Source: Frateuria edaphi (GTDB lineage: Bacteria > Pseudomonadota > Gammaproteobacteria > Xanthomonadales > Rhodanobacteraceae). Taken from it: 64,000 bases of DNA. Shown piece after piece: positions 5,781 to 28,996 of this stretch. Under the pieces are notes generated by a model. That model was not told the DNA's origin and searched no databases. It saw only the letters and a program-made list of their open reading frames with translations. Positions within the stretch are counted from its first letter, which is position 1, and each line of letters begins with the position of its first letter. Where the stretch lies: the NCBI RefSeq assembly GCF_021117405.1, contig NZ_CP088251.1, forward strand, positions 1,178,001-1,242,000, written 5' to 3'. The position numbers and the translations under genes are program-made.

Positions 5781-5794
5781 GGATGGGACTCGCC

Positions 5795-6838: not shown

Positions 6839-7316
6839 CCGGTGGCGGTTCGCACCGATCCGGACCCGGTGGCGCGCGAACCGATTCTAGACGCGTTGCA
6901 CCCCCGCGCGCGTGCCTGCGATCGGCTTGGGGGAGCCAGCGGTCTTTGTCCTGCGGCTTGGCGTGGGAAAAGCCGGTTCATGCCGAACAATGGCTTTTCG
7001 ATCAACCATTTGTCGCTAGCGCTGCCGGCGCTGAATGTGGGTGACCTGAAATGCCCCCGATTTACGCACTAAGAACCATGGGGACTGCCTGCAGGTGCCG
7101 CAGGGCCTCGTAATGTTGTGGGCGCAAACCGCTGGCAACGGGGTTTGCGTGCATCGGTTGGCTTAAGGGGGCTTGGGATGCGTATCGACGGTGCTTGCGG
7201 CGGCGGACACGTCTGCCCGTGGCAGTGGCGCGGTGCTCGGGCACCCGCTTGTGTCCGGCCTGCGCGTCGCGCACGGCTCCATTTGCTCGCGATCGCAGGT
7301 TTTTGAGGGACTGGAC
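6839..7316. other. Divergent intergenic region between the effector and vgrG
   Basis: About 480 bases between divergently transcribed genes with no convincing coding sequence. It should hold promoters for both directions. Visible elements are an AT-richer stretch near 6975-7070, the 10-mer GATTTACGCA at 7059-7068 (also present upstream of tssA), an 8-bp inverted repeat at 7123-7149, and the vgrG ribosome-binding site (TGAGGGA, about 7304-7310). Confidence 0.6.
7123..7149. promoter_or_regulatory. Inverted repeat in the vgrG leader
   Basis: CGCAAACC (7123-7130) and GGTTTGCG (7142-7149) are perfect complements separated by 11 bases. The element is 168 bases before the vgrG start and could be a regulator site or an RNA stem. 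No protein can be assigned to it. Confidence 0.35.
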
Positions 7317-9908: not shown

Positions 9909-11243
9909 GTGCCTATCCCACAGACACTCGTGCTCGCCGTGCTCGGCCCGCACGCCGCGCAGTTCGGCGCACGCAGCCAGAAGGCCTTCGAGGGCCGCGA
10001 CGGCAGCATCGGCCGCGCGGAGGACTGCGACTGGGTGCTGGCCGCGGCCGGCGTGTCGCGCGTGCACGCCATGGTGCGCTGCCTCAACGGCATGTACTTC
10101 ATCGAGGACCGCAGCACCAACGGAATGCTGCTCAACGGCCGTCCGTTGGTAAAGGGCGACCCGGCCTCGCTGAAGGAGGGCGACCGCCTGCAGATCGACA
10201 CCTTCGAGGTGTCCGTGCGGATGCAGGCCGACAGTGCCACTCTGGTGCAGCCTGGCCCGGCACCCGTCCCGGCACCCGCGATGGCGGCTGCGGCGCCGCT
10301 GCCGGGAGGCGACTTCCTCGACGAGATGCTGGGCGGCCCGTTCGGCGCGCCGCCAGCCCCGGCGCGCGGTATCCCTGACGAGCCGCTGATTCCGGCGCCC
10401 GGCGGTCCGGCCGCCACGCTCGATCCGCTGGCGTTCCTGGACGAGCCCTTCGGTGCGCCGCCGGCGCCCGCGCCTGCACCGGCCGCAAGCTGGAACCATT
10501 CCAGCGGCATGGCCGATCATTTCCATCCCCCGGGCGTTGCCGGCCAGCGCCCGGCGCTGCCGGAGAACTGGGACCTGACCATGGGCGACTTCGCGCCCAA
10601 GTCGGCACCGGTGGCCACGCCGGCACCCCCGCCAGCCCCGGCACCGGCGGCGCCGATCGCGCCGGTGGCGCCGCAGCCGGTCGTGTCGCTGGCGCCCGTC
10701 GCCGGCCCGCACGGCGCTCCGGCCGGTGTCCCGCCCGAGCTGGACACGATCTTCCGCATCGTCGTCGATGGCGTGATGGACGTGCTGCGCGCCCGCGCGG
10801 AGATCAAGAACACCTTCCGCCTGCCGGTCACGCTGATCCAGCGCTCGGAAAACAATCCGCTGAAGTTCGCGCCGACCGCCGACGAAGCGCTGCAGAAGCT
10901 GCTCGCCCCGGCCACCGGTGCCTTCCTCTCCGGCACCGATGCCTTCCAGGACGCCTTCGACGACATCCGTTGCCACCAGATGGCGATGCTGGCGGGCGTG
11001 CGCGCGGGTTTCGAGGCCGTGCTGGCGCACTTCAACCCGGACCGGCTGGAGCAGGAAGTGGACGGCAGCAAGCGCTCGACCTTCGGCGGCAAGGGCCGCT
11101 ACTGGGAGCGCTATCGCGAGAACTTCGAGGGGCTGGCCAAGGACCCGGACGAATGCTTCCGCCGCTTGTTCGGGGACGAGTTCGCACGCGCCTACGAAGA
11201 GCAGCTGGCGCGCCTGAAGTCGGCACGGGTGCGGCAGCGGTAA
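9909..11243 (+). CDS. tagH: T6SS FHA-domain protein TagH
   Basis: A 444-aa cytoplasmic protein. Residues about 1-95 form an FHA phosphothreonine-binding domain: GRAEDCDWVL, then SRVHAMV, then the STNGMLLNG signature. A long Pro/Ala linker follows (about 105-270). Residues about 275-444 form the TagH C-terminal domain (for example EALQKLLAPATGAFLSGTDA and FGGKGRYWERYREN). In the T6SS of Pseudomonas and Agrobacterium, Fha proteins read threonine phosphorylation by PpkA and trigger assembly. The start is the GTG at 9909, with GAAGGAG 8 bases upstream. A SATLVQP motif at residues 109-115 follows the FHA domain and matches motifs in TssL and both kinases, so TagH may itself be phosphorylated. Confidence 0.93.
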   Translation: MPIPQTLVLAVLGPHAAQFGARSQKAFEGRDGSIGRAEDCDWVLAAAGVSRVHAMVRCLNGMYFIEDRSTNGMLLNGRPLVKGDPASLKEGDRLQIDTFEVSVRMQADSATLVQPGPAPVPAPAMAAAAPLPGGDFLDEMLGGPFGAPPAPARGIPDEPLIPAPGGPAATLDPLAFLDEPFGAPPAPAPAPAASWNHSSGMADHFHPPGVAGQRPALPENWDLTMGDFAPKSAPVATPAPPPAPAPAAPIAPVAPQPVVSLAPVAGPHGAPAGVPPELDTIFRIVVDGVMDVLRARAEIKNTFRLPVTLIQRSENNPLKFAPTADEALQKLLAPATGAFLSGTDAFQDAFDDIRCHQMAMLAGVRAGFEAVLAHFNPDRLEQEVDGSKRSTFGGKGRYWERYRENFEGLAKDPDECFRRLFGDEFARAYEEQLARLKSARVRQR

Positions 11244-11309
11244 GAGCGCATGGCGCTTTTCACCTGAAAAACACGCACTAGAAGAAGGGCCTCCCACGCC
11301 AGGGCATCC

Positions 11310-11373
11310 CCTGTAGGAGCGCCTTGGGCGCGACCGCGGAACCTGGGGTCGCGTCCAAGGGCACTCCTACAGG
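11310..11373. repeat. REP-like palindromic element (family 1)
   Basis: The left arm CCTGTAGGAGCGCC-TTGGGC starts at 11310, and the right arm ends at 11373 with CACTCCTACAGG. The arms pair over about 26 bases with one bulge and two mismatches. This is the TGTAGGAG...CGCGACC type of repetitive extragenic palindrome seen in Xanthomonadales and Pseudomonas. It lies between tagH and tssK and may affect transcript stability or partly terminate the transcript inside the operon. Confidence 0.75.
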
Positions 11374-11446
11374 CAGCTCGCGGGCCGTGGGGCGCGTCCA
11401 GGGATGCAGGGCGCCCAGGAAGCAACCACCAGCAGACAGGTCGGTC

Positions 11447-12784
11447 ATGACGCAAAACAACAAAGTGGTATGGAGCGAGGGCCTGTTCCTGCGCCCGCAG
11501 CACCTGCAGCAGCAGGAGCGCTACTTCGAGCGCTTCGTCGAGCTGCGCGCCGGCGCACTGCGGCCCTACGCCTGGGGCTTCCAGGAGCTGGAGCTGGAAC
11601 CTGACCTGCTGGCGATCGGCAAGCTCGGTATCCGCCGCGCGAGCGGCATTTTTCCCGATGGCACGCCGTTCTCCATGCCCGGCGACGACCCGCTGCCACC
11701 GGCGCTGGAGGTCGATGCCAACTGGCGCGACCAGACCGTCTACCTGACCCTGCCGTTGCGCACGCCCACGCAGCCCGAAAGCGGGCGCCCGGAAGCCCCG
11801 GCCGAGCGGCTGTTCCGCTACCGCGTGCGCGAGACCGAGGTGCGCGACAGCTCCGGCAGCGTCGAGGGGCTCACGCCGCTGGAAGTCGGCGGTATGAGCA
11901 CGCGCCTGCTGCCGCAGTCGCAACCGATGGAAGGGCTGGCGCAAATCCCGGTCGCGCGCATCGTCGAGTGCCGCGCCGACCGTCGCGTGATGCTGGACGA
12001 CGCCTTCATGCCCACCGGGTTGAGCTGCCAGGCGGTGCCGCGGCTGGTGACCTTCCTCACCGAGCTGCTCGGCCTGCTGCACCAGCGTGGCGAGGCGCTG
12101 GCCAGCCGCGTGGCGTTGACCGATCGTGGCGGCGCGGCGGAGATCGCCGACTTCCTGATGCTGCAGGTGGTCAACCGCTACCAGCCGCTCATCGCGCACC
12201 TGGCAGAGGCGCCGCTGGAACACCCGGAAGCCTTCTACCGCACGCTGGTCGCGATGGCTGGCGAGCTCAACACCTTCACCGCGCCGGGCAAGCGTCCGCC
12301 GATGTTCCCGCCGTACCGCCACGAGCTGCTGCGCGAAAGCTTCGAACCGGTGATCGTCTCGCTGCGCAACGCACTCAGCGCGGTGATGGAGCAGACCGCC
12401 ATGCCGATCCCGCTGCAGCAGCGCAAGTACGGCGTGTGGGTGGCGGTGGTGCCCGACCTGACCCTGATCGACACCGCGGCCTTCGTGCTTTCGGCCAAGG
12501 CCGACATGAAGTCCGAGGACCTGCGCCGGCAACTGCCCGCGCACGCCAAGATCGGCCCGACCGAGAAGATCCGCGACCTGGTCAACCTGCAGTTGCCCGG
12601 CATCGCCGTGCAGCCGATGCCGGTGGCGCCGCGGCAGATTCCCTACAACGCGGGCTACCTCTACTTCGAATTCGACAAGCACTCGCCGATGTGGCGCGAG
12701 CTGAAGACCTCCGGCGGCATCGCGTTCCATTTCGGCAGCGAGTTCGCCGGGCTCGACCTGCAACTTTGGGCCATCCGGAGCTGA
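11447..12784 (+). CDS. tssK: T6SS baseplate subunit TssK
   Basis: A 445-aa protein with typical TssK length and opening: MTQNNKVVWSEGLFLRPQHL and QQERYFERFVELR. The start of TssK (VWSEGLFLRPQHLQQQ) is one of the most conserved T6SS signatures. TssK is the baseplate adaptor that links the TssFG wedges to the TssLM membrane complex. The C-terminal part, which contacts TssL, includes the conserved IPYNAGYLYFEFDK and ends near LDLQLWAIRS. The ATG at 11447 has ACAGG just upstream. It is separated from tagH by 203 bases that hold a REP element, and from tssL by 4 bases. Confidence 0.96.
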   Translation: MTQNNKVVWSEGLFLRPQHLQQQERYFERFVELRAGALRPYAWGFQELELEPDLLAIGKLGIRRASGIFPDGTPFSMPGDDPLPPALEVDANWRDQTVYLTLPLRTPTQPESGRPEAPAERLFRYRVRETEVRDSSGSVEGLTPLEVGGMSTRLLPQSQPMEGLAQIPVARIVECRADRRVMLDDAFMPTGLSCQAVPRLVTFLTELLGLLHQRGEALASRVALTDRGGAAEIADFLMLQVVNRYQPLIAHLAEAPLEHPEAFYRTLVAMAGELNTFTAPGKRPPMFPPYRHELLRESFEPVIVSLRNALSAVMEQTAMPIPLQQRKYGVWVAVVPDLTLIDTAAFVLSAKADMKSEDLRRQLPAHAKIGPTEKIRDLVNLQLPGIAVQPMPVAPRQIPYNAGYLYFEFDKHSPMWRELKTSGGIAFHFGSEFAGLDLQLWAIRS

Positions 12785-12788
12785 TGCC

Positions 12789-14120
12789 ATGAGCGGTCCC
12801 TTCGACGAGGACATGCGCGACGCCACCGTGGTGCGCCCGCGCGGCGCACCGGCCCCGGCCGCGGCCGTTGCCCCCCCGCCGGCCGCCCATGTGCCACCGC
12901 CGGCCGCCTACGCTGCCGCGGCCCAGCCGGCGCGCGAGGAGGACATCAGCGGTTTCCTCGGCGGCGGCATGAACCCGCTGGTGCAGGCGGCCAGCCCGCT
13001 GCTGCTGCTGGCGGTGCAGTTGCGCCACAGCGCCACCGCGCCGGACGCCGCGCGCCTGCGCGAGCAGGCCACCACGCAGGTACGCCGTTTCGAAAGTCGC
13101 GCGCAGGCGTCCAACCTGCCGCAGCAGACCGTACTGGCGGCGCGTTACGTGCTGTGCACCATGCTCGACGAGTCGGTGCTCAACGCGCCCTGGGGCGAGC
13201 ACAGCGGCTGGGCGCAGCAGACCCTGCTGGTGGCGTTCCACAGCGAGTCCTACGGCGGCGCCAAGTTCTTCCAGATCCTCGAGCGGCTGTGCGCGGATTT
13301 CTCCAAGCACATCGACCTGATCGAGCTGATGTACATCTGCCTGGCGCTGGGCTTCGGCGGGCGCTACCAGATCGAGGCGGGCGGGCGCGCCAAGCTGGCG
13401 GACATCCAGGAAGACCTGTACCGGCGCCTCAAGGAACAGCGGGCGCCGGCCGCGCAGGAGCTGGCGCCGCACTGGCGCGGCGTGGAAGACCGGCGCAACC
13501 CGCTGGTGCGCTACGTGCCGCTGTGGGTGATCGCCACCGCTGCCGCCTGTGTGCTGCTGGCGGCCTTCCTGTTCTTCTACACCCGGCTCAACGATGCCGC
13601 GTCACCGGTCAACGCGCAGCTCGCGCGGATCGGGTTGGAAGGCGCGACGCCGCCGGACACCGCGCACCGTCCCGCGCCCGAGCGCAAGCGCCTGAAACAG
13701 CTCCTCGCACCGGAAGAACAGGCCGGGCTGCTGAGCATCGACGAACAGCCGGACGGGCAGGCGATGCTGCGTCTCTCCGGCAATGCGATGTTCGCCTCCG
13801 GCGGCGTCGACGTGAACGATCGCCAGTTGCCGCTGCTGCACAAGATCACCGCCGCGCTCAACCAGGTGTCCGGCCGGGTGATCGTCATCGGCCACACGGA
13901 CGACCAGCCGATCCACTCGCTGAAGTTCAAGGACAACTTCGCGTTGTCGGCGGCTCGCGCGCAGTCGGTCAGGCAGATCCTGACGCAGGGGCTGGACAAC
14001 CCGGGCCGCATCGAATCGACCGGCGCCGGCGCCTCGCAGCCGATCGCGCTGCCGCCGGACCTGCCGGACAACCGCACGCGCAACCGCCGCGTCGAAATCA
14101 AGTTCATCCCGGAGGCCTGA
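12789..14120 (+). CDS. tssL: T6SS inner-membrane protein TssL with C-terminal OmpA-like domain
   Basis: A 443-aa evolved TssL. The order is a disordered Pro/Ala N-terminus (1-50), a DotU/IcmH cytoplasmic helical domain (about 55-230; DESVLNAPWGEHSGWAQQTL and LELMYICLALGF-type motifs), one transmembrane helix (about 244-266), and a periplasmic OmpA/MotB peptidoglycan-binding domain (about 320-443; VIGHTDDQPIHS and NRTRNRRVEIKF). Such domains anchor the membrane complex to the cell wall. The N-terminus holds DATVVRP with Thr13. In Agrobacterium, TssL is phosphorylated by PpkA at an N-terminal threonine (Thr14) and is then bound by Fha, so Thr13 is a strong candidate phosphosite. It is the second gene of the tssKLM set, with no gap for a separate promoter. 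Confidence 0.96.
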   Translation: MSGPFDEDMRDATVVRPRGAPAPAAAVAPPPAAHVPPPAAYAAAAQPAREEDISGFLGGGMNPLVQAASPLLLLAVQLRHSATAPDAARLREQATTQVRRFESRAQASNLPQQTVLAARYVLCTMLDESVLNAPWGEHSGWAQQTLLVAFHSESYGGAKFFQILERLCADFSKHIDLIELMYICLALGFGGRYQIEAGGRAKLADIQEDLYRRLKEQRAPAAQELAPHWRGVEDRRNPLVRYVPLWVIATAAACVLLAAFLFFYTRLNDAASPVNAQLARIGLEGATPPDTAHRPAPERKRLKQLLAPEEQAGLLSIDEQPDGQAMLRLSGNAMFASGGVDVNDRQLPLLHKITAALNQVSGRVIVIGHTDDQPIHSLKFKDNFALSAARAQSVRQILTQGLDNPGRIESTGAGASQPIALPPDLPDNRTRNRRVEIKFIPEA

Positions 14121-14124
14121 CGCC

Positions 14125-17100
14125 GTGGCGAAGTTGCTGAGCCTTTTGAAGTCCGCCTGGTTCGTCACGCTGATCGGCGTGCTGCTGCTCTCGGTGCTGG
14201 TGTGGCTGGGCGGTCCGTACCTCGGAATCGGCGATTCGCAGCCGCTGGCCAGCCCGGTCGCGCGGCTGCTGCTGATCATGGTGATCGTGCTTGCCTGGGG
14301 TGCCTGGCTGCAGGTGCAGGCGCTGCGCGCGCGCGGCAAGGCCAACAAGATGTCCGGCGAGCTGGCCGGGCAGGGCGGCCCGACGCCTGCTGGTGGCGGC
14401 GACAACCGCGGCGCGGGTGAAGGCGCGCAGCTGCAGGGCCGTTTCCAGGAAGCGGTGGAAATGCTGCGCAAGCGCCGTCGCGGCAACCTGTATGCGCTGC
14501 CCTGGTATGTGGTGATCGGCCCGCCGGGCTCGGGCAAGAGCACGTTGCTGCAGAACTCCGGGCTCAATTTCCCGCTGTCCGAACGCTTCGGCAAGGAAGC
14601 GCTGCGTGGCGTCGGCGGCACCCGCAACTGCGACTGGTGGTTCACCGACGAGGCGGTCTTCCTGGACACCGCCGGCCGCTACACCACGCAGGATTCGGAC
14701 CGCTCGGCCGACGCCAGCGCCTGGGGCGAATTCCTCAAGCTGCTGCGTCGCTACCGCAAGCGCCGACCGATCAACGGCGTGATCGTGGCGATGAGCCTGT
14801 CCGACCTGATGGTGCTGGATGACGCCGGACGACAGGAACACGCGGGCGCGATCCGCCGCCGCCTGGATGAACTCTCCGAGCACCTGAGGATCGGCGTGCC
14901 GGTCTACCTGGTGCTGACCAAGTGCGACCTGGTGGCCGGCTTCGGTGAATTCTTCGACGACATGAACCCGGAGCTGCGCAGCCAGGTCTGGGGGGTGTCC
15001 TTCCCCTTGGGCAAGACCATGGAGGGAAGTGCCGCCAAGGCCTTCGCCGACGAATACCGGCTGCTGCTGGACCGGCTCAACACGCGCACGCTGGATCGCC
15101 TGCACGCCGAGCGCGACCGCGGTCGGCGTGCAGCGGTGCTGTCGTTCCCGCAGCAGCTGGCAGCGCTGGGCGAGACCGCGCGGCAGTTCGTCGAGGGTGT
15201 GTTCGCCGGCCATGCCTATGGCACGCCGCCGCTGCTGCGTGGCGTCTACCTCACCTCCGGTACGCAGGAAGGCACGCCGATCGACCGCATGATGGGCGCG
15301 GTCGCGCGCACTTTCGGGCTGGACGCCGCACGGGTGAACCCGCAGGGCGCGCAGCGGCGTACGTTCTTCGTCGAGCGGCTGCTCAAGGAAGTGCTGTTCC
15401 GCGAATCCGGTCTGGCCGGCACCAACCCCGCCATCGAGCGGCGCAAGGTCGCCGTGCAACTGGCGTCCTACGCCGGCATGGCGCTGCTGACGGTGCTGTT
15501 GTGCTTCGGCTTCGCCACCAGCTATGCGCGCAACCGCGCCTATCTGGGGCAGGTGCAGGATGTGTTGAAGGATTACCCCGCTGGCGTGGACCTGCCGGCC
15601 AGCGCCACGCCGAAGGAATACTTCGCCAAGGTGCTCGACCGGCTGGAGGCGTTGTCGGCCGTGCAGCAGACGGCTACCCCGGAAGGCGGCGTGCCGATGT
15701 CGATGCGGCTGGGCCTGTACCAGGGCAAGGCGGTCGGCGAGGACCTGCACGCGGCCTACCTGCGCGAGCTCAATGCACTGTTGCTCCCCGGCGTGGGCGC
15801 GCAGTTCCGCGGCGGCCTGGCCGCCAGCGCGTCCGATCCCCAGGCGCTGTACTACTACCTCAAGGGCTACCTGATGCTGGGCGAGCCCAAGCATCTGGAT
15901 GCCGACGAACTGGTAGCCCTGGCCAACCTGGAATGGCGCAAGGTGTTCCCCGACGAACCCGTGCTGCAGCAAGCGCTGGCCAAGCACTTCCAGGCGCTGG
16001 TCGAGGAACCCGGCCAGTTGCGCGCCCTGCCGCTGGACGCGGCGCTGGTGGAGCAGGCGCGCACGACGCTGCGCACGGCGGACCTGTCGACGCTGGTCTA
16101 CGGCAGCATGAAGCTGTCGGCCGAAAGCGCCGGCAAGCCGCTGCAACTGGACAAGGAACTGGGCCTGCTGGGCAACGTGTTCCGCCGCCAGAGCGGCAAG
16201 CCGCTGTCCGATCCGCTACCCGCGCTCTACACGCAACCGGTGTTCGCCATCGAGGCAGACAAGGGCGTGGAGGAGGCGGTCAAGCAGTTCGCCTCGGATG
16301 ACTGGGTGTTCGGCGCCGAACCGATCGATGCGCTGGCGCAGGCACGCCTTTCGCGCCAGGTGCTGGCGCTCTACGAGGCCGACTACATCAAGGCCTGGGA
16401 TGCCCTGCTGGCCGACCTGCAGCTGCAACCGGCGGCCAGCATCCAGGATGCCAGCACCATCGCCGCCAAGCTGTCGGGCCCGAGCTCGCCGCTCAAGTCG
16501 CTGCTCAAGCTGGTGCGCGACAACACCAGCGACATGCTGCGCGCGCCGGCGCCCGACGCCGGCGACAAGGCGCTGGATGCAGCCAAGGATGCGGCCGCCA
16601 AGAAGGCCACGCAGAACGCGCTCGGCCGGGCGTTGGCGAAGGTCGGCGGTGGTGCCGGGAGCGCGGAGGACGCGCCGCCCGGCAGCGCCATCAGCGCGCA
16701 CTTCGACACGCTCAACAAGCTGAGCGAGGGCGCGCCCGGCGCCGCGCCGATCGACCAGACGCTGGCCGCGCTCGACCAGCTGAGCAAGACGCTGCTCACC
16801 ATGACCGACTTCAGCGACGCGGCCGGTCAACCCAACCCGCAGCTGCTGATGGCGCAGCAGGCGGCCGCGCAGCTGCCGCCGCCGGTATCGGGCTGGGTCG
16901 CCTCGCTCACCGGCAAGAGCCAGGCGCTGGTCGCCAGCGGTACCAAGGGCGCGCTCGACGAGCAGTTCCAGCAGGCCGCGGCACAGGATTGCGCGGCCTT
17001 CACCCAGGGCCGCTACCCGTTCTCCCCGAGCAGCCGCAACGACATCCCGGTGCAGAACTTCGGCGAGATGTTTGGCTACGGCGGGCGCTACGACGGCTTC

Positions 17101-17637
17101 TTCAAGCAGACCCTGGCCAAGCTGGTCGACACCAGTGGCCGCAACTGGCAGTGGAAGAGCGGGCCGGGCGCGGTCAGCGGCTCGGCATCGATGCTGGCGC
17201 AGATGCAACTGGCCGACAGCATCAAGCAGATGTACTTCCGCAACGGCAGCCCCACGCCCGAAGTCGGTTTCACCCTGCTCGCGCCCGTGCTGGCGCCGGG
17301 CATCGGCCACTTCGCCATCGCCATCGACGGGCAGACCTTCGACTACAAGCCCGGCGGCACCACCAGCATGGCGATGAAGTGGCCCGGACCGACCCCGGGG
17401 CAGGTCAAGGTCTCCGCGTGGGACACCGCCGGCAACCTGCTCAGCAGCTACGACTACCAGGGCGACTGGGCGTTCTTCCATGCGTTGCAGGCGGCGCAGC
17501 TCTCGCGCCAGTCGGATTTGCGCTACCAGGCGCACTTCGACTTCGGCGGCCAGGCCGTGCAGCTGGTGGTGCAGGCCAGCAACCTGAAGAACCCGTTCCT
17601 CAACACGCAGGTGCAACGCTTCCGGTGCGGGGGCTAG
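14125..17637 (+). CDS. tssM: T6SS membrane-complex protein TssM (IcmF family)
   Basis: A 1,170-aa IcmF-family protein of normal length. Two N-terminal transmembrane helices (about 11-31 and 46-66) precede a cytoplasmic NTPase domain with an intact Walker A (GPPGSGKST, 132-140) and a Walker-B-like FLDTAGRYTT at about 178-187. A third membrane helix lies at about 445-465, followed by the large periplasmic part with the IcmF-related region and the C-terminal TssJ/peptidoglycan-facing domain (VSGWVASL onward). The start is a GTG at 14125, 4 bases after tssL, with GGAGG in the end of tssL. The intact Walker A suggests nucleotide binding. With TssL it forms the trans-envelope channel. A canonical TssJ partner is not present in this window. 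Confidence 0.96.
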   Translation: MAKLLSLLKSAWFVTLIGVLLLSVLVWLGGPYLGIGDSQPLASPVARLLLIMVIVLAWGAWLQVQALRARGKANKMSGELAGQGGPTPAGGGDNRGAGEGAQLQGRFQEAVEMLRKRRRGNLYALPWYVVIGPPGSGKSTLLQNSGLNFPLSERFGKEALRGVGGTRNCDWWFTDEAVFLDTAGRYTTQDSDRSADASAWGEFLKLLRRYRKRRPINGVIVAMSLSDLMVLDDAGRQEHAGAIRRRLDELSEHLRIGVPVYLVLTKCDLVAGFGEFFDDMNPELRSQVWGVSFPLGKTMEGSAAKAFADEYRLLLDRLNTRTLDRLHAERDRGRRAAVLSFPQQLAALGETARQFVEGVFAGHAYGTPPLLRGVYLTSGTQEGTPIDRMMGAVARTFGLDAARVNPQGAQRRTFFVERLLKEVLFRESGLAGTNPAIERRKVAVQLASYAGMALLTVLLCFGFATSYARNRAYLGQVQDVLKDYPAGVDLPASATPKEYFAKVLDRLEALSAVQQTATPEGGVPMSMRLGLYQGKAVGEDLHAAYLRELNALLLPGVGAQFRGGLAASASDPQALYYYLKGYLMLGEPKHLDADELVALANLEWRKVFPDEPVLQQALAKHFQALVEEPGQLRALPLDAALVEQARTTLRTADLSTLVYGSMKLSAESAGKPLQLDKELGLLGNVFRRQSGKPLSDPLPALYTQPVFAIEADKGVEEAVKQFASDDWVFGAEPIDALAQARLSRQVLALYEADYIKAWDALLADLQLQPAASIQDASTIAAKLSGPSSPLKSLLKLVRDNTSDMLRAPAPDAGDKALDAAKDAAAKKATQNALGRALAKVGGGAGSAEDAPPGSAISAHFDTLNKLSEGAPGAAPIDQTLAALDQLSKTLLTMTDFSDAAGQPNPQLLMAQQAAAQLPPPVSGWVASLTGKSQALVASGTKGALDEQFQQAAAQDCAAFTQGRYPFSPSSRNDIPVQNFGEMFGYGGRYDGFFKQTLAKLVDTSGRNWQWKSGPGAVSGSASMLAQMQLADSIKQMYFRNGSPTPEVGFTLLAPVLAPGIGHFAIAIDGQTFDYKPGGTTSMAMKWPGPTPGQVKVSAWDTAGNLLSSYDYQGDWAFFHALQAAQLSRQSDLRYQAHFDFGGQAVQLVVQASNLKNPFLNTQVQRFRCGG

Positions 17638-17639
17638 CC

Positions 17640-19193
17640 ATGTCCGGGCCGACAGGGGGCGGGACGGCAAGCGTGGGTTTCTTCGGCAAGTTGCCGGGGG
17701 CGGGGGACTTCGTGCAGCGGCGGCTGCCGTTGGCATTCGTCGAACGCTGGGATCACCACTTCGAACAGGCCGTCTTCGCCAGCCGCGAAGCACTCGGCCA
17801 GGATTGGACGGCGGCCTATCGCGCCAGTCCGACCTGGCGATTCGTGCTGTCGCCGCAGGCATGCGGCGAAGGTGCGTGGGCCGGCGTGTTCGGCCCCGCC
17901 GACGACCGCGTCGGCCGCAGCTTTCCGATGGTGCTGGCCGCGCCGGTCGCGCCCGCGCAGATCGAGCCGCTGCTGCGCGACGGTACCGGCTGGTTCGATG
18001 CGCTGGCGCGCGTCCATGCGCAGGGCCAGCGCGGCGCGCCGGTGGATGCCGAAGGCTTCGACGCCCTGGTGGCGGCGCTGCCCGGCCCCTCGGCCGACGC
18101 GCCCGTGCCGGCCGACCCGTCCGAAGGGGTCGACTTCAGCCGCGCGACGCACTGGCGCCTGCCGTTGCCGGAACGTGCCGTCGATACCGATGCGTTGGTC
18201 GCGCTGTGGCGACGACTGGTGGGCCACGGTGGTCCCTGGTGCCTGTGGTGGACCGAGGGCGCAGGCCGCGTCCCGGCCGGAGTCCTGGCCACCCGGGGCC
18301 TGCCGGCGGCCGACGCCTATGCAGGCTTCCTCGATGCGGCCCGCGCCGGTGTGTGGCAGGCCCCCATGGGCGGCCCCGCGCCGCATGCCGTGCCGGTGGC
18401 CTCCGCTATCGCCGAGCCGCCGCCTGCTCCGGCTCCGGTGGTGCGCGATGCCGATGACGACGTGACCGTGCCCGGTTTCGTGCGCCAGGCAGGCGCAACG
18501 GCGACGCCGGTGGCAGCACCGGCATTCAACACCGAACTCTCGGTGCAGACCGCGCCCGGCGCGGCCGTCGTGCGCCATCCGGCCTGCGCGCTCACCCTGG
18601 TGGCGGCCGATGTGGGCCAGGCCGATCCGCGCCGTCGCGCCGCATCCGCGGTCGCCAGCGTCGGCGCCGAAATGAGTGCCTCGGACGAGGCCGCGCCGGG
18701 CACGCATGCGTTGCGTGCCCGCCTGATGGCGCTGCATCCGCTGCTGCGCCATGGCCGCGTCAGCGAAGACGGCGCGGTGGTGGCCGCGCGTGTCGCCGGG
18801 CCGCAGGCCGGGCTGCTGCGGGTGGGCGCCGCGGGAGCGTGGCACTGGCGTGGAGGCCGCGTGCGTCCGCTGTTCGCCACCACGCTGGCGCAGCCATCGC
18901 TGCCCGGTGGCGGCGAGCTGGACGACCTTCTGTTCGGAGGCAATGACGCGCCGACCGTGCCCGGCCTGGGTGCCGAAGGCATGCCTGGCTGCGAGCAGAT
19001 CGCCTGCGAACTGATGCCCGGCGACCGCCTGGTGCTGCTGGCCGGCGTGGCGCATACGCAGCTCTCGCAGGCCACGCTGGCGCAGGCGCTTGCCGCCGCC
19101 ACGCCGCAGGACGCGCAAACGCGCCTGGCCCAGGCGTTGGGCCCGACTCATTCGCGGCCCTGGCCGCTGGCCGTGATCGAGGTGCAGCCATGA
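17640..19193 (+). CDS. tagF: TagF fused to a degenerate PP2C-like domain
   Basis: A 517-aa protein. Residues 1 to about 240 are TagF: VGFFGKLPGAGDFVQRRLP, then WDHHFEQAVFASREAL and DRVGRSFPMVLAAPV. TagF represses T6SS assembly, in some species by binding Fha. After a Pro/Ala linker, residues about 295-517 align with PppA, the next gene, but the PP2C metal ligands are lost: ADG becomes ADVG, GDSRAY becomes GAAGAWHW, CSDG becomes LAGV, and the terminal DN becomes RP. This therefore looks like a pseudophosphatase domain. TagF-PppA fusions with an active phosphatase are known in Agrobacterium; here the fused copy is dead and an active copy follows. The ATG at 17640 is 2 bases after tssM, and the end overlaps pppA by 4 bases. 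Confidence 0.9.
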   Translation: MSGPTGGGTASVGFFGKLPGAGDFVQRRLPLAFVERWDHHFEQAVFASREALGQDWTAAYRASPTWRFVLSPQACGEGAWAGVFGPADDRVGRSFPMVLAAPVAPAQIEPLLRDGTGWFDALARVHAQGQRGAPVDAEGFDALVAALPGPSADAPVPADPSEGVDFSRATHWRLPLPERAVDTDALVALWRRLVGHGGPWCLWWTEGAGRVPAGVLATRGLPAADAYAGFLDAARAGVWQAPMGGPAPHAVPVASAIAEPPPAPAPVVRDADDDVTVPGFVRQAGATATPVAAPAFNTELSVQTAPGAAVVRHPACALTLVAADVGQADPRRRAASAVASVGAEMSASDEAAPGTHALRARLMALHPLLRHGRVSEDGAVVAARVAGPQAGLLRVGAAGAWHWRGGRVRPLFATTLAQPSLPGGGELDDLLFGGNDAPTVPGLGAEGMPGCEQIACELMPGDRLVLLAGVAHTQLSQATLAQALAAATPQDAQTRLAQALGPTHSRPWPLAVIEVQP

Positions 19194-19915
19194 CCGTGCG
19201 TTACCTGTCCGCGGGGCATACCGACACCGGCAAGGTCCGCAAACACAACGAAGACGCGATCCTGGTGCGCGAGGACGTCGGCCTGTGGGTGGTCGCCGAC
19301 GGCCTGGGCGGCCATTCGGCCGGCGACTACGCCAGCGGGTTGATCGTCGAGCGACTCGGTGCGCTCCCGCGCAACGGCGACGTGTTCGACTTCGTCGAGT
19401 CGATCGAAGACACGCTGGCGCAGGTCAACAGCGAACTGCGCCAGGTCGCCGCGACGCGTGGCGTCGACCTGATTGGCTCGACTGTGGTGGTGCTGGTCTA
19501 CGATCCCGACTTCATGCTGTGCGGCTGGGTCGGCGACAGCCGCGCCTATTGTTTCGAGGATGGGCGTCTGCGGCAGATTACCCGCGACCACGTGCACGGG
19601 CTCAAGGAGGAAGTGACCCAGTTCGCCGGTGGGCCCGTGCCCGCGAGGCCGCAACCGGGCGCCGGCGTGCTGACCCGTGCGATCGGCGCCGAGGACCGGC
19701 TGTTCGTCGACTGGGTGGTGGCCGGCAACCGCTCGGGCATGCAGTTCGTGCTGTGTTCCGATGGCATCAACAAGGAAATGTCCGACGAGGAGATCGACGC
19801 GCAGTGCGCGCGCCCGCAGCCTCCCGGCGATTTGCTGCAGGGGTTGTTCGCCCTGGCCATGGGCCGTGCCGCGCGCGACAACGTATCGGCCGTGGTCGTG
19901 CGGTTGCAGGGCTGA
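19190..19915 (+). CDS. pppA: T6SS PP2C-type protein phosphatase PppA
   Basis: A 241-aa PP2C-family Ser/Thr phosphatase. All expected motifs are present: RKHNEDAILV, VVADGLGGHSAGDYAS, WVGDSRAY, LCSDG and DNVSAVVV. The Asp residues that bind the Mn/Mg pair are intact. PppA reverses PpkA phosphorylation and turns the T6SS off. Its ATG overlaps the tagF stop (ATGA), indicating translational coupling and matched dosage with TagF. Ten bases separate it from the first kinase gene, so kinase and phosphatase are made from one transcript. Confidence 0.95.
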   Translation: MTVRYLSAGHTDTGKVRKHNEDAILVREDVGLWVVADGLGGHSAGDYASGLIVERLGALPRNGDVFDFVESIEDTLAQVNSELRQVAATRGVDLIGSTVVVLVYDPDFMLCGWVGDSRAYCFEDGRLRQITRDHVHGLKEEVTQFAGGPVPARPQPGAGVLTRAIGAEDRLFVDWVVAGNRSGMQFVLCSDGINKEMSDEEIDAQCARPQPPGDLLQGLFALAMGRAARDNVSAVVVRLQG

Positions 19916-19925
19916 CGCGACGATC

Positions 19926-21995
19926 ATGGCCACGCCCTCGCTAAGCACGCTCATCGATGCCTACCAGTCGGGTGAGCTGTCGTTGCCGGCGTTGCTGGTC
20001 GACGCATTGGCCGAGCGCGGCGCGGTCCCCGCGGACCAGCACGCGGACGAGCTGCGCTGGCTCGCTCGCATGCGCGAGGAGGGCAGCCTCGGTGCGGGCG
20101 TGGTGCAACGGGTGAGCGAGCGCCTGGAGGCGTTGCAGCGTGCCGGCGACGAAGTCGCGTCGGTCCTGGCCATGGCCGATGCCGACGAGCCGACCTGCGT
20201 CATGCCGTCGACCCGTCCGACATCGACCGGCGCGGCTGCCGACCAGGCGACCGTGGTCAAGCCGGCTACCCGGCCAGAATCCACCCGCACCGGTGCTACC
20301 GGCTCGCGCACTGCCGGCGGTACCGGCAGCGTCGACGCTGCCGGCTGGCAGCAGCTGGCCGGTGTGGCCGATGGCGAGCAGGCGACGATCGGCATGTTGC
20401 TCAAGGGCCGATTCCTGATCGAGCGGGAGATCGGCCGCGGCGGCATGGGCGTGGTGTTCCTGGCGCGCGACGAGCGCAAGGTGGAGGCCCGCGACCGCGA
20501 TCCCTACGTCGCGGTGAAAGTGCTGAACGACGAGTTCCGCCGTCATCCCGATTCGCTGATCGCGCTTCAGCGCGAATCGCGCCGCTCGCAGCAACTGGCG
20601 CACGACAACATCGTGCGCGTCTACGACTTCGACAAGGACGGCACCATCGTCTTCATGACGATGGAGTACGTCGATGGCTCGGACCTCAAGACGCTGATCC
20701 GCGAGAGCGCTTTCCGCGGCTTGCCGCTGGCCAGGGCAAGACCGTTCATCGAGGGCATGGCGCGGGCGCTCAAGCGCGCGCACGACGCCGGCGTGGTGCA
20801 CTCGGACTTCAAGCCGGGCAACGTGATGGTCACGCGCGAGGGCATGCCGAAGGTGTTCGACTTCGGCATCGCGCGCGCCGGCAAGCAGCCGGGCGAGGTC
20901 GCCGAGGACCAGACGGTGTTCGACGCCGGCCGGCTCGGCGCGCTCACGCCGGCCTATGCCAGCCTGGAAATGATCCAGGGCCGGCCGCCGCAGCCCACCG
21001 ACGACATCTACGCGCTGGGTTGCGTCGCCTTCGAACTGCTCACCGGCAAGCATCCGTTCGACAAGATGAGCGCCGAGGTGGCGATGCGCGAAGGGCGCAA
21101 ACCGCCGGTGGTGCCCGGGCTGACCCGTCGCCAGTACAAGGCGTTGTGCGACGCCGTGGCCTTCACTGCCGACAAGCGCCTCAAAAGCGCCGATCTGCTC
21201 GTCGAGGGCTTGCGCGACATCGGCCTGGGCGAGCGTCTGGGACGGCCGCTGGCGTGGACGGCGGTCGGTGTCCTGCTGCTGGCGGTCGGTGGCTGGGTCG
21301 CGATCGGCCAGTGGCGCGCGCGCCAGGTCGCCGAGATTGCGGCGCGATTCCAGCCGGCCGACCCGCAACACTTCAGCGACGAAGCCGAGGCCGCCGCCGC
21401 CCTCGATCAATTGGGCGAGGACGGACGCAAACGACTGATGCTCGACCAGGGCGACCAGGTCCAGCAATTCCTGCTCGGACGCGTCGATGCCTACTGGAAC
21501 CCCGCGCAGGGGCGACGCGATTACGCGGCGGCCGAGCGGGTTTTCGCAGTGCCCGCGCGGCTGCACCTGTTCCTGCCGCGGCTGGATCTCAGGCGCGCCG
21601 CCGTGGAGAAAGAGAAGCAGGAGCTGGACCGGCCTGCCGCGGTGAAGGCCGCGCCAGCGCCGCCGCCGCAGGAGCGCACGCCGCCGTCGCCGGTCCCGCA
21701 GCCGGAAGCCAGGCCGCCGGTGACCGCGCAGGCCTCGATCCCAGCGAAGACGACGCCCACCGAAAAGCCGCCGGTCTCTGCGCAGCCTCCCGTCGCTTCC
21801 ACGCGCATGCAGGAAGTCGCCGCGGGCCTGCTGCGCGAGGGCGAGCGCAACTTCTCGCAGCAGAACTACTCCGCCGCCATCGCCAACGCCAAGGCCGCGC
21901 TGCAGGTGAATCCAGGCGATGCGGACGCCAGACGCCTGTTGCGCCGCGCCCAGCAGGCGCAGCAGAAGGCCATGAACAGCATCTCGATCAACTGA
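19926..21995 (+). CDS. ppkA: T6SS Ser/Thr protein kinase PpkA, copy 1
   Basis: A 689-aa Hanks-type kinase. A helical N-terminal module (1-80) and a Thr-rich linker precede the kinase domain (about 160-420): glycine loop GRGGMG at about 170, VAVK lysine at about 198, catalytic HSDFKPGN at 292-299 (Asp294), and DFGIA at 312-316. HRD is replaced by HSD, so it is a non-RD kinase, but the catalytic Asp, Lys and DFG are all kept. One transmembrane helix lies at about 442-462, followed by a periplasmic part with a Pro-rich segment and a short TPR-like C-terminus (ERNFSQQNYSAAIANAKAAL). The linker holds PTCVMP (Thr90) and ATVVKP (Thr109). The kinase domain is nearly the same as in the second kinase three genes later. 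Confidence 0.93.
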   Translation: MATPSLSTLIDAYQSGELSLPALLVDALAERGAVPADQHADELRWLARMREEGSLGAGVVQRVSERLEALQRAGDEVASVLAMADADEPTCVMPSTRPTSTGAAADQATVVKPATRPESTRTGATGSRTAGGTGSVDAAGWQQLAGVADGEQATIGMLLKGRFLIEREIGRGGMGVVFLARDERKVEARDRDPYVAVKVLNDEFRRHPDSLIALQRESRRSQQLAHDNIVRVYDFDKDGTIVFMTMEYVDGSDLKTLIRESAFRGLPLARARPFIEGMARALKRAHDAGVVHSDFKPGNVMVTREGMPKVFDFGIARAGKQPGEVAEDQTVFDAGRLGALTPAYASLEMIQGRPPQPTDDIYALGCVAFELLTGKHPFDKMSAEVAMREGRKPPVVPGLTRRQYKALCDAVAFTADKRLKSADLLVEGLRDIGLGERLGRPLAWTAVGVLLLAVGGWVAIGQWRARQVAEIAARFQPADPQHFSDEAEAAAALDQLGEDGRKRLMLDQGDQVQQFLLGRVDAYWNPAQGRRDYAAAERVFAVPARLHLFLPRLDLRRAAVEKEKQELDRPAAVKAAPAPPPQERTPPSPVPQPEARPPVTAQASIPAKTTPTEKPPVSAQPPVASTRMQEVAAGLLREGERNFSQQNYSAAIANAKAALQVNPGDADARRLLRRAQQAQQKAMNSISIN

Positions 21996-22008
21996 GGAGG
22001 GACTCGCC

Positions 22009-22695
22009 ATGCATGACGGAATCCGCGGTATCAGCCTTCTGGGTGCAGCTTGCGTGCTCGCCCTGGTGAGCGGTTGCGCGCAGATGGGTGGGTTGGGGAT
22101 GCCCGCCGCCGACACCGCCCGCACGAACGCCAGCGAACCGGTGTCGCCCGAATGCAACCCGGCGGTGGGCGGTGCCATCGGCGCGCTGGCCGGCTCGATG
22201 TTCGGCAAGGGCAAGGGCCACCTGGCCGGCGCCGCGATCGGCGCCGGCATTGGCGCGTTCGCCTGCGTCGCCTACAACTACCACGCACGCAAGGTCAGGG
22301 ACGCGAGTTCGGTCGAAGACCAGTACCGCCACGACCGCGGCGCCCTGCCGGCCAGCAATACCATCAGCGCCTACCAGACCGCGCTGCTGCCTGGCGAGAC
22401 GGTCCGCTCCGGCAGCAAGGCGGCGATGCAGTCGCGCGTCACGCTGGTGCGCGGCACGCATGACGTGGCGCCGCAACTGAAGGAACAGTTGACCCTGTTC
22501 GCGCCCGACGGCCGCCAGCTGACCACCGTGACCAAGGACGCTACCGCCATCGACGGCACCGGCGAGTACGAGACCAATTTCGATTTCAACCTGCCCAAGG
22601 GCATCCAGGACGGTCGCTACACGATGCGTTCGGCGCTCTACATGGATGGCCAGCAGGTGCGCACCAACGAAGTCCCCATGCTGGTGGTCAGCTGA
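22009..22695 (+). CDS. Glycine-zipper lipoprotein between the two kinases
   Basis: A 228-aa protein with a clear lipoprotein signal (CVLALVSGC, lipobox at the C). A glycine-zipper segment follows (AVGGAIGALAGSMFGKGKGH and AAIGAGIGAFACVA), then a polar region and a beta-rich C-terminal domain (about 140-228; YETNFDFNLPKGIQDGRYTM). It starts 13 bases after kinase 1, with GAGGAGGGA as ribosome-binding site. In Pseudomonas, lipoproteins and periplasmic sensors (TagQ, TagR) activate PpkA, so an envelope-sensing role for this protein is a reasonable inference. It does not look like TssJ, which lacks a glycine zipper, though the C-terminal beta domain could fill a similar place. No firm family assignment. 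Confidence 0.85.
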   Translation: MHDGIRGISLLGAACVLALVSGCAQMGGLGMPAADTARTNASEPVSPECNPAVGGAIGALAGSMFGKGKGHLAGAAIGAGIGAFACVAYNYHARKVRDASSVEDQYRHDRGALPASNTISAYQTALLPGETVRSGSKAAMQSRVTLVRGTHDVAPQLKEQLTLFAPDGRQLTTVTKDATAIDGTGEYETNFDFNLPKGIQDGRYTMRSALYMDGQQVRTNEVPMLVVS

Positions 22696-22755
22696 CCGGA
22701 TCACCCGCGCACGCCGCCGTAACCGCGCGCCTGTCGCACCGACGAAGAGCTTTGC

Positions 22756-25700
22756 ATGAACACGCTTGCCGAACTGATCGCCGCCTTCCGCAACGGCCAC
22801 CTGCCGCTCCCCGTGCTGCTCGATGCACTGGGCCGCCGCGGCTCGGTGCCGGAGGATCGCCACCACGACGAACTCGCGCTGGTGCGCCGCCTGCACGACG
22901 AGGGCGAACTGGATGCGGAGATCGGCCGCGTGTTGCTGGACCGGCTGATGGCGGCGCAGGTCGTGGCCGAGGACATCCCGGTGACCGACGATGCCACGGT
23001 GGTGGCACCGGCCGGGGCGGTCATGGAGGGCGATGCCACGATGGTGGTCCCGGCCCCCGTCGCCCGCGTTGCGTCCGAAGCGATCGGCGACGCGACTGTG
23101 GTGATGCCAGCCTCGCGTCCCCCCGCGCCGCCGCCGTCAGTCGACGAAGCGACCGTGGTGATGCCCGCCTCGCGCGGCCAGGCGATCGAGGACGCGCAGT
23201 CCACAGGCACCCAGTCCACAGGCACCCATTCCGGCACGCACTCGGGCAACAGCGCCAGCTGGGAGCGCCTGGCCGGTGCCGAGGGCGGCGACCACGCGCA
23301 CGTCGGCATGCTGCTCAAGGGCCGCTTCCTGCTCGAGCGCGAGATTGGCCGCGGTGGCATGGGCGTGGTGTTCCTCGCCCGCGACGAGCGCAAGGTCGAG
23401 GCGCGCGACCGCGATCCCTACGTCGCGGTGAAAGTGCTGAACGACGAATTCCGCCGCCATCCCGATTCGCTGATCGCGCTGCAGCGCGAATCCCGACGCT
23501 CGCAGTCGCTGGCGCACGACAACATCGTGCGCGTCTACGACTTCGACAAGGACGGAACCATCGTCTTCATGACGATGGAATACGTCGACGGTTCGGACAT
23601 GAAGGCGCTGATCCGCGAGCGTGCCTACAACGGCATGCCGCTGGCCAAGGCCCGTCCGCTGATCGAGGGCATGGCCTGGGCGCTCAAGCGGGCGCACGCC
23701 GCCGGCGTGGTGCACTCGGACTTCAAGCCCGGCAACGTGATGGTCACGCGCGACGGCGTGCCGAAGGTCTTCGACTTCGGCATCGCGCGCGCCGGCAAGC
23801 ATATGGGCGAGGCGGTCGGCGAACAGACCGTGTTCGACGCCGGCACGCTGGGCGCGCTCACGCCCGCCTATGCCAGCCTTGAGATGATCCAGGGCGACGA
23901 GCCGACGCCGAGCGACGACCTGTACGCGCTGGGTTGCGTGGCGTTCGAGCTGCTCACCGGCAAGCACCCGTTCGACAAGGTGAGTGCCGAGGTGGCGATG
24001 CGCGAAGGACGCAAGCCGCCGCTCGTACCGGGGCTCACCCGTCGCCAGTACAAGGCGCTGTGCGATGCGGTGGCGTTCCGCGGGCAGGATCGGCTGCGCA
24101 CGGCGCAGGACTTCGTCGAAGGCCTGCGCGAGGTCGGCCTGCGCGAGCGCATCGGCCCGTACCTGGCCTGGGGCGCCGGCGCGCTGGTGGTGCTGGTCGC
24201 CGGCGGCTGGGGCGGAACGCAGTACCTGCACCAGCGCAAGGTGGCGCAGGTGATCGCCCGTTTCGCACCGGGCGACGCACACCGCTACGCCGACGAAGCC
24301 CAGGCCGTGGCCGCGCTGGACACCCTCGGCGAGGAGGAGCGCAAGCGCCTCGTGCTCGACCAGAGCGATCTCATCCAGCGCTTCCTGCTGACCCGCCTGG
24401 ATGCCTACTGGAATCCCGCGCAGGGCCGTTACGACTACACCCACGCGCAGCAGCTGTTCGCACTGCGCGACCAGCTCAAGCTGTACTCGCCCGAGCTGGA
24501 CATCCGCCGCAGCGCGATGGACCAGCAGAAGAACGAGCTGCTCAACAGCCTCGACACCCAGCTCGCCCAGCGCATCGAGGCAGGCGCGATCTTCGCCGAC
24601 CAGCCGGACAACGCCATCGAGACGCTGGAAAAGATCCGCGCCATCGACCCGACCAGCAGCCTGCTCAAGAACGCCGAGCTGGAACTCAAGTACGACATCG
24701 CCATCGGCGATGCGATGGCGCAGCACCACGGCGATCGAGCCGCCGCGCACCTGAAGCAGGCGCTGGCGCTGTTCCCCGACTCCGCCCGCCTGCAGCGCCG
24801 GAAGGCCCAGCTCGATGCGATGGGCACGGGCGCTGCCGTGGCGACCACTCCGACGGCCGCCGCGGCGACCAGCCTGCCCGAGGCGCGCACCGCCCTGGCC
24901 GCGCTGATCGCCCACCCGGAAGCGAGCGCCGACTGGCAGCGCCAGGTCGCCACCGCGGTTGCGCCGCTCAAGGGCGATGCTTCGCCGCAGACCCGTGCGC
25001 TGGTCGACCAGCTGGCCACCGCCATCGCCCAGGTTGCCGACCAGCAGACCGATGCACTGCACCTGCCGCAGGACCAGGCGCTGGTCGATTTCGGCCTCAC
25101 CGTGGCGCCGCAGTCGACCGCGCTCAAGAGCGAGCACGATCGCCTGGCCGCGCTGGACAAGCAACAGCAGGACCGCCTGGCGCAGGAAAGCGCGGCAGCC
25201 GAGGTCACCGCACGCATCGAGTCGGTCAAGCGGGCCGCCGCGGCGGGCGATACCGGCAAGGCGCAGGAATCGCTGGCGCGCATCCGCACGCTGGCGCCAC
25301 AGCATCCGTTCCTCGCCAGCGAAGGCCCGCAGCTGCTGGCCGACGCCTACCTCGGCCAGGCCCGCGAGGCCTTCCGCAAGGGTCGCTACCAGTCCGCCGC
25401 CGATGTGCTTACGCGCGCCACCGGCCTGCTCGGCCAGCGCGCCGATCTCGCCAAGGCCAGCGCCCGCTATGGTCTGGCGGCCGATCTGGTGAAGGCGCGT
25501 GGCCAGGCCGTTGCCTCGACCGATCTCGATCGCATGCGCAGGCAGTTGGCGCAGGTGAAGCATGCCGATGCCGACGCGCTTGCCGCGCTCGAGGCGGACA
25601 TGAAGCTGCGCGGCCAGTTGGGTGAAGGTTCGCTGGCGGCCCTGCTGGATTCGCTCAAGCCCGCCACGGGTCCGTCCGCCACCCCGGTCCTGCCGACCGC

Positions 25701-28984: not shown

Positions 28985-28996
28985 CGGGCCATACCC

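Follow-up and report, generated by a model that had tools for sequence, protein, structure and literature searches.

A recurrent threonine motif in a type VI secretion operon of Frateuria edaphi: a candidate phosphothreonine tag in TssL and two kinases

Does a short threonine motif, recurring in four proteins of a single operon, mark the sites where a kinase writes and a forkhead-associated (FHA) domain reads? The question is raised by the type VI secretion system (T6SS) operon of Frateuria edaphi (Rhodanobacteraceae), contained in a stretch of 64,000 nucleotides (contig NZ_CP088251.1, positions 1,178,001 to 1,242,000), here called the window. An earlier note on this DNA had listed eight copies of (A/P)-T-x-V-x-P in disordered parts of TagH, TssL and two kinases (K1 and K2), several of them preceded by Asp or Glu, had pointed to an FHA reader and a PP2C eraser in the operon, and had proposed that the motif is both kinase site and FHA ligand. 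All eight copies were recovered at the residues given there, the strict form [DE]AT[VIM]VxP being found once in TssL and four times in K2, and Pfam matches identify both reader and eraser (Table 1). In K2, the one protein modelled, residues 74-162 show values of the predicted local distance difference test (pLDDT) below 50; this linker, which holds all four threonines, joins the kinase domain to a helical domain at the N-terminus. K2 has two further [AP]T.V.P matches in its C-terminal half, Thr733 (ATAVAP) and Thr976 (ATPVLP); neither directly follows Asp or Glu, and both may be due to chance. We regard it as fairly probable that the motif serves as kinase target and is bound, once phosphorylated, by the FHA domain of TagH, within the known T6SS threonine-phosphorylation pathway.

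The gene set of this pathway (PpkA/PppA/Fha) is found in the operon, which encodes an FHA protein, Hanks-type kinases, a PP2C phosphatase and TagF. Residues G35, R36, S50 and H53 of TagH, which serve in phosphothreonine binding in FHA domains, are identical in all 30 aligned sequences, and kinase residues D322, K324, N327 and D340 F341 G342 are unchanged in 24 aligned kinases. The closest named TssL relatives, in a similarity search possibly lacking the genome itself, belong to Rhodanobacter and Dyella. The genome contains 7 Pkinase and 3 FHA matches, and one of the latter adjoins a Ser/Thr kinase at G000:C1:562441-563549; the strict motif is absent from this second FHA-kinase locus (562 kb).

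Chance composition was evaluated by shuffling the four linkers (TssL 1-60, TagH 97-278, K1 76-163, K2 71-190) 20,000 times: 18,444 shuffles contained no motif, 1,499 one, 54 two and 3 three, versus the eight observed. For the linkers taken singly, the observed count was reached in 0/20,000 shuffles for K1 and for K2, and in a fraction of 0.006 for TssL and 0.034 for TagH, whose copy alone is borderline with respect to chance. Specificity within the genome varies with the strictness of the pattern. A scan of 3,769,403 bases, on both strands and in six frames, gave 53 matches to a codon-restricted A-T-x-V-x-P, versus 21 in the control, and 26 versus 18 to [DE]xT[VIM][VILM]xP; loose forms are therefore not specific, and the bare or loose motif was ruled out as a signature of the genome. 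The strict form, by comparison, has five matches, all within the T6SS operon, versus 2 in the control. When 41 genomes of the family, this one included, were scanned for the strict form, 70 matches were found versus 58 in the control: 25 fall, by position, within T6SS clusters fetched from eight genomes (five in G000, the genome of the window; four each in G031 and G029; three each in G003 and G009; two each in G005, G010 and G022), while the 45 located elsewhere do not exceed the control. The K2 copies encode the same residues by different codons, and no tandem DNA array lies over them; two short arrays only, at 23197-23248, were found behind the motifs.

TssL was matched in 169 of 197 family genomes, many of them weakly through the C-terminal part, and 56 loci were fetched from the best matches. 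We aligned 42 N-termini of at least 30 residues, including that of the window, from loci where an FHA gene was found, leaving out L076-L086, whose TssL is less than 40 percent identical. Columns D11, T13, V15 and R16 are 100 percent identical, A12, P17 and V14 reach 95, 92 and 71 percent, respectively, and the remaining N-terminal columns, first Met excepted, lie between 19 and 88 percent. Among the 45 family loci carrying an FHA gene plus a kinase or phosphatase gene (pathway loci), TssL contains the core T[VILMC][VIL].P in 38, and in the other 7 it carries DDATVVRA, DDATVVRS, EDATVMRV or NNRTFVMP, so that a related TssL site is found at all 45. At loci without the full pathway, where the core was counted alone (variants being listed for pathway loci), it occurs in 0/4 with FHA only, 0/3 with none of these genes and 2/3 with a kinase or phosphatase and no FHA gene seen. 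In kinase N-linkers of at least 90 residues, the family shows the core in 45 of 50, at one to four copies per kinase and 94 copies in all, versus a shuffle mean of 1.3 and a maximum of 6. The alignment of orthologues, suggested in the earlier note as a check, thus finds the motif kept in TssL and the kinases while most of the linker changes, and kept in few TagH proteins at Thr111; loss of the motif in orthologues, named in that note as a refutation, was not observed for TssL and the kinases.

Two broader sets were assembled: 80 named loci, picked by TssL similarity, and 80 phylum loci surrounding a DotU match (88 of 398 genomes had one), taken best scores first with the weakest matches outside. 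The sets overlap, as at least L087, L088, L089, L091, L092, L095, L114, L115 and L120 are duplicates of family loci and L110 duplicates phylum locus L177, and some phylum genomes supply several loci. As the start of TssL we took, by guess, the first Met in the 110 residues that precede the DotU domain; kinases past the fetched stretch were missed, and some named contigs are short. Rows with fewer than 10 N-terminal residues were dropped (1/56 family, 3/80 named, 1/80 phylum), and those with a kinase or phosphatase but no FHA gene (3 family, 3 phylum) stand outside the association tests.

In TssL N-termini of loci with FHA plus kinase, the core was found in 37/44 family and 30/46 named rows, versus shuffle means of 0.3 and 0.4, and in 4/38 phylum rows, versus a mean of 0.3 and a maximum of 3; reversed motif forms gave 0 or 1 match in either phylum class. 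Relaxing the pattern to T[VI][VIL] yields 22/39 pathway, 4/17 FHA-only and 1/20 geneless rows in the phylum set (p=0.0001), or 10/20, 3/11 and 1/12 with one vote per genus (p=0.048), and 43/64, 3/7 and 3/6 in the named set (p=0.21). A wide form, [DE].{0,3}T[VILQ][VILMF], is matched in 30/39, 5/17 and 2/20 phylum rows, and per genus in 13/20 pathway versus 4/11 FHA-only and 2/12 geneless rows (p=0.015), the p values for this form being flattering, since the pattern was composed after seeing the sequences. These counts suggest that the wide TssL form modestly tracks the pathway across the phylum. The dialects seen are DRTVIRPxPGGR, which recurs at many loci of Gammaproteobacteria, DRTQFMPxPGGR and D[DE]KTV[IL]L, in genomes of Pseudomonas size, and NLPT[VI]VEL, in Agrobacterium-like loci; the exact motif thus represents a single dialect out of several. 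Across the phylum, presence of the narrow motif does not follow that of the pathway (4/39 versus 4/37), and a universal code in this form was therefore rejected.

For the kinases, the core was found in 24/38 named N-linkers, and when the pattern T[VILMRQC][VIF].P was used on kinases admitted at a stricter cut-off, a copy is present in 52/56 family, 30/46 named and 3/38 phylum linkers. Of the phylum kinases, 6/42 carry a copy in the 60 residues that follow the kinase domain, barely above the shuffle maximum of five copies; five of the six, in Pseudomonas-type loci, read [DE]AT[VL]VRP. At nine named loci the kinase carries a copy and TssL lacks the core; these are six of Xanthomonas, two of Stenotrophomonas and L096, whose TssL carries the variant DATVMRP; kinase and TssL copies are hence kept partly independently. 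In the Xanthomonas loci L102, L103, L104, L106, L107 and L109, which lack a TssL threonine motif, the kinase linker still reads DDDATVVMPR.

The TagH copy fares differently. Thr111, six residues past the FHA domain, is retained within the genus in the window, L031, L033 and L034, not in L032, and beyond it in L037, L042, L043, L047 and L062, L036 having a TIF variant. Thr111 was accordingly rejected as a general site beyond the genus and these few loci, and the case for it as a phosphosite is weak. A second threonine, unlisted in the earlier note, is Thr308, included in VTLIQRSENNPLKF within the T6SS FHA C-terminal domain and invariant in 30 aligned TagH proteins. When weak or short matches, including those of the Agrobacterium-like L225 and L228, are left out, this column is Thr in 44/44 family, 66/66 named and 32/35 phylum pathway rows; FHA-only rows have Arg in 3/3 family, Thr in 6/6 named and, among 17 of the phylum, Thr in 8, Arg or Lys in 6 and other residues in 3. 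Two Pseudomonas-type proteins show QQTLVRPVENNPLKF at the column. In one Pseudomonas-type Fha, L248, 499 residues long from the chosen Met, the aligned residue is Thr364 of QQTLVRP, the only threonine between 276 and 467; Fha1 itself we take to be about 497 residues long. The published phosphosite of P. aeruginosa Fha1, in the PpkA-Fha1-PppA pathway of the H1-T6SS, is Thr362 (cited in PMC3953482 and PMC2699552). By position, the L248 threonine is probably this site, in which case T-L-V-R-P would sit in a second mapped substrate. In TagH itself the phosphate would probably go to Thr308, in place of Thr111 or in addition to it. An attempt to equate Thr438 of Serratia Fha with the C-terminal-domain threonine failed, as the enterobacterial-looking L200, L209 and L210 have that threonine at 227-239.

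The closest precedent for the TssL site is Agrobacterium tumefaciens. As the earlier note had stated in outline, and as Lin et al. 2014 (PMC3953482) report, phosphorylation of TssL Thr14 depends on PpkA, and the phosphopeptide DLPpTVVEI binds Fha in vitro, with a dissociation constant of 1.58 mM for the 8-mer and 0.54 mM for the 20-mer; no binding of the unphosphorylated peptide was detected, and secretion needs both TssL phosphorylation and Fha binding. Like the window, Agrobacterium has PpkA, PP2C, TagF and Fha functions and a threonine at TssL residue 13/14 in an A/P-T-V-V context, ATVVRP and PTVVEI having in common a T-V-V core near the N-terminus. Unlike the window, it has a single TssL site, copies in the PpkA linker go unmentioned in the portions of that report at hand, and the Pseudomonas-type Fha threonine was not found there. 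The same text describes Thr14 as not conserved in distant TssL proteins, whereas we find a recognisable form in many. Pseudomonas shares the gene set and, in L248, the C-terminal-domain threonine in a T-L-V-R-P context, but its known phosphosite lies in Fha1; for the [DE]AT[VL]VRP copies after the kinase domain (5 loci) and the TssL DRTQFMP of Pseudomonas-type loci no published description was found in the sources covered. In a peptide search TVVEI was found in PMC3953482 and PMC5995506, and the other motif peptides returned no T6SS paper by title. Among the matches listed in a literature search that left most subscription journals outside, no title or abstract opening describes the motif across TssL, kinases and Fha, a weak sign that such a description is lacking.

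On this background, activation would proceed as follows. PpkA-type kinases would place phosphate on Thr13, in the cytoplasmic N-terminal part of TssL, and on threonines of their own disordered N-terminal linkers; the TagH FHA domain would bind these phosphothreonines, so bringing TagH to the TssL-TssM membrane complex, where it would overcome TagF repression and let assembly start, and the PP2C phosphatase would reset the marks. In a model for Serratia it is phosphorylated Fha that overcomes TagF repression. The four copies in K2 and the two in K1 could hold several TagH molecules near the membrane by avidity. It is possible, by analogy, that K2 is a multivalent dock for Fha, as the earlier note had it, which would fit both the one to four copies per kinase and the weak single-site affinity in Agrobacterium. 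Kinase-driven clustering reversed by a phosphatase is described in a review (PMC9312465) for Mycobacterium tuberculosis Rv1747 with PknF and PstP: like the proposed dock, Rv1747 combines FHA domains with a disordered linker; unlike K2, it is an unrelated ABC transporter, and holds linker and FHA domains within one protein. In Acidovorax citrulli, PpkA binds and phosphorylates Fha in a TssW-PpkA-Fha system, and both form condensates recruiting T6SS parts (PMC12607579); that report, in the portion seen, names no phosphothreonine motif or multivalent linker, the word "motif" being absent from the main text.

The proposal that the motif is kinase target and FHA ligand finds support in the sequences of TssL and the kinases, through conservation and the core shared with Agrobacterium, and is weak for TagH Thr111, retained in few orthologues. 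Several points count against it even there. Phosphorylation, FHA binding, activation and relief of TagF repression in the window organism are all extrapolated from other species. The core shows no association with the pathway in phylum TssL proteins (pathway 4/39, FHA only 3/17, none 1/20) nor in named ones (42/64, 4/7, and 6/6 where neither gene was seen), and it occurs in only 1/14 phylum kinase N-linkers; the wide form, besides its flattering p values, gives 45/64, 4/7 and 4/6 in the named set (p=0.53). The six Xanthomonas and two Stenotrophomonas loci have FHA, kinase and phosphatase genes without such a TssL site. The pT+3 rule cited for FHA domains is not evident, as the position +3 after the threonine varies. 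Thr438 of Fha is described as the sole PpkA target in S. marcescens, so TssL phosphorylation is not universal. Finally, the catalytic loop of K1 and K2 reads HSDFKPGN, with HSD where HRD is expected, which makes both of them non-RD kinases; control through the activation loop may thus differ from that of PknB-type kinases. A 2019 review of Xanthomonadales T6SSs states that functionality of the cascade in that order is still to be determined experimentally.

Other explanations of the motif have to be set beside this one. The kinase-linker copies may be autophosphorylation sites that tune the kinase, the TssL copy alone being the FHA ligand. The activation loops do carry the related DQTVF and GEQTVF, so the kinases may simply prefer D-x-T-V-hydrophobic, and DRTQF occurs in both TssL and the activation loop of Pseudomonas-type clusters; but the linker copies, up to four, are shaped like the TssL one (V at +2, P at +4), and the eight Xanthomonas and Stenotrophomonas loci keep a kinase copy and an FHA gene with no TssL copy. 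We hold this account to be unlikely. As to the loops themselves, each of the clusters L170, L171, L174, L178, L179 and L180 carries DRTQF at the N-terminus of TssL as well as in the activation loop of its kinase, and over 81 distinct loops the summed identity of loop to TssL is 117, versus a permutation mean of 100.6 and a maximum of 114 (500 permutations); since much of this signal comes from one Pseudomonas-type lineage, the mirroring is a lead only. That Thr308 of TagH is the key phosphosite, as in Pseudomonas, with the linker motifs secondary, appears rather improbable. Its near-constancy in pathway rows, set beside an Arg or Lys in 9/20 FHA-only rows of family and phylum, speaks for such a role; a conserved threonine in a folded domain may yet be structural, FHA-only rows keep it in 8/17 phylum and 6/6 named cases, and the retention of the linker motifs would be left unexplained.

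If the motif served, independently of phosphorylation, to dock the kinase domain or some other component of the T6SS, the high conservation of the D, V, R and P that flank the TssL threonine would be accounted for, as it would by any linear motif. Thr13 is nevertheless unreplaced in the 42 family TssL proteins, and the Agrobacterium peptide needs its phosphate to bind Fha (PMC3953482); we consider this explanation quite improbable. That the repeats are a by-product of linkers rich in Ala, Pro and Thr, or of a recent duplication, is scarcely credible: rich in Ala and Pro as the linkers are, and common as bare A-T-x-V-x-P is in the genome, shuffles never reach eight, the motifs lie under no tandem array, codons differ for the same residues, and conservation extends across genera. 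For TagH Thr111 alone, such a reading is possible.

Some neighbouring genes were noted along with the operon (features in Table 1). The lipoprotein-like product encoded between the kinase genes, which has a sub-cut-off glycine-zipper match and whose gene is retained in several relatives, could be a regulator of both kinases. Adjoining VgrG (7173-9341), two open reading frames on the minus strand, at 5795-6838 and 4989-6077, combine a chitinase/GH19-like sub-cut-off Pfam match with an LprI lysozyme-inhibitor domain, and could be a T6SS cell-wall effector/immunity pair. Directly behind the operon, at 26975-40387 (+), a ShlB/FhaC-type transporter is followed by a repetitive open frame of 3,796 residues resembling, by eye, a filamentous haemagglutinin, together taken as a two-partner secretion pair; behind these, on the opposite strand, 41795-42826 (-) encodes a protein with an ImpA_N (TssA-type T6SS) domain.

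Table 1. Genes and motif sites of the T6SS operon, in positions of the window
Feature	Position	Strand	Basis or remark
TagH/Fha (FHA reader domain, T6SS FHA C-terminal domain)	9909..11243	+	Pfam FHA, T6SS_FHA_C
TagH motif ATLVQP, Thr111	10236..10253	+	pattern search; few orthologues retain it
TagH TLIQR, Thr308, candidate phosphosite in C-terminal domain	10830..10844	+	invariant in 30 sequences
TssK	11324-12784		
TssL (DotU and OmpA domains)	12789..14120	+	domain scan
TssL motif ATVVRP, Thr13	12822..12839	+	pattern search, conservation
TssM	14125-17637		named by gene order and sequence
TagF repressor	17634..19193	+	Pfam TagF_N
PP2C phosphatase (eraser)	19190..19915	+	Pfam PP2C_2, PP2C
Kinase 1 (K1)	19926..21995	+	Pfam Pkinase
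K1 motif PTCVMP, Thr90	20190..20207	+	pattern search
K1 motif ATVVKP, Thr109	20247..20264	+	pattern search
Small lipoprotein-like protein, between K1 and K2 genes	22009-22695	+	
Kinase 2 (K2): kinase domain, C-terminal FGE-sulfatase domain	22756..26460	+	domain scan
K2 linker, residues 74-162, predicted disordered	22975..23241	+	pLDDT <50
K2 motif ATVVAP, Thr81	22993..23010	+	T81 nearly invariant in 24 kinases
K2 motif ATMVVP, Thr95	23035..23052	+	pattern search
K2 motif ATVVMP, Thr114	23092..23109	+	pattern search
K2 motif ATVVMP, Thr133	23149..23166	+	pattern search
K2 activation-loop Thr358 (EQTVF), motif-related	23827..23829	+	T358 invariant in 24 kinases

A broader, more tentative view we put forward as somewhat doubtful: a portable phosphothreonine tag, for which the T6SS kinase is the writer and Fha the reader, may reside in TssL, in the disordered linker of the kinase, there one to four times, or in Fha itself, moving between these partners as lineages diverge, and a kinase with several copies may be a scaffold gathering Fha, a structural seed beyond its role as an enzyme. 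The Fha-bound T6SS phosphopeptide has, in the literature consulted, been mapped in Agrobacterium only. The conserved motif points to candidate threonines in TssL, kinases and Fha of many T6SSs, which can be tested with short peptides. If kinase linkers do dock Fha, kinase and scaffold would be one molecule, and this may be a molecular basis of the PpkA/Fha condensates of Acidovorax.

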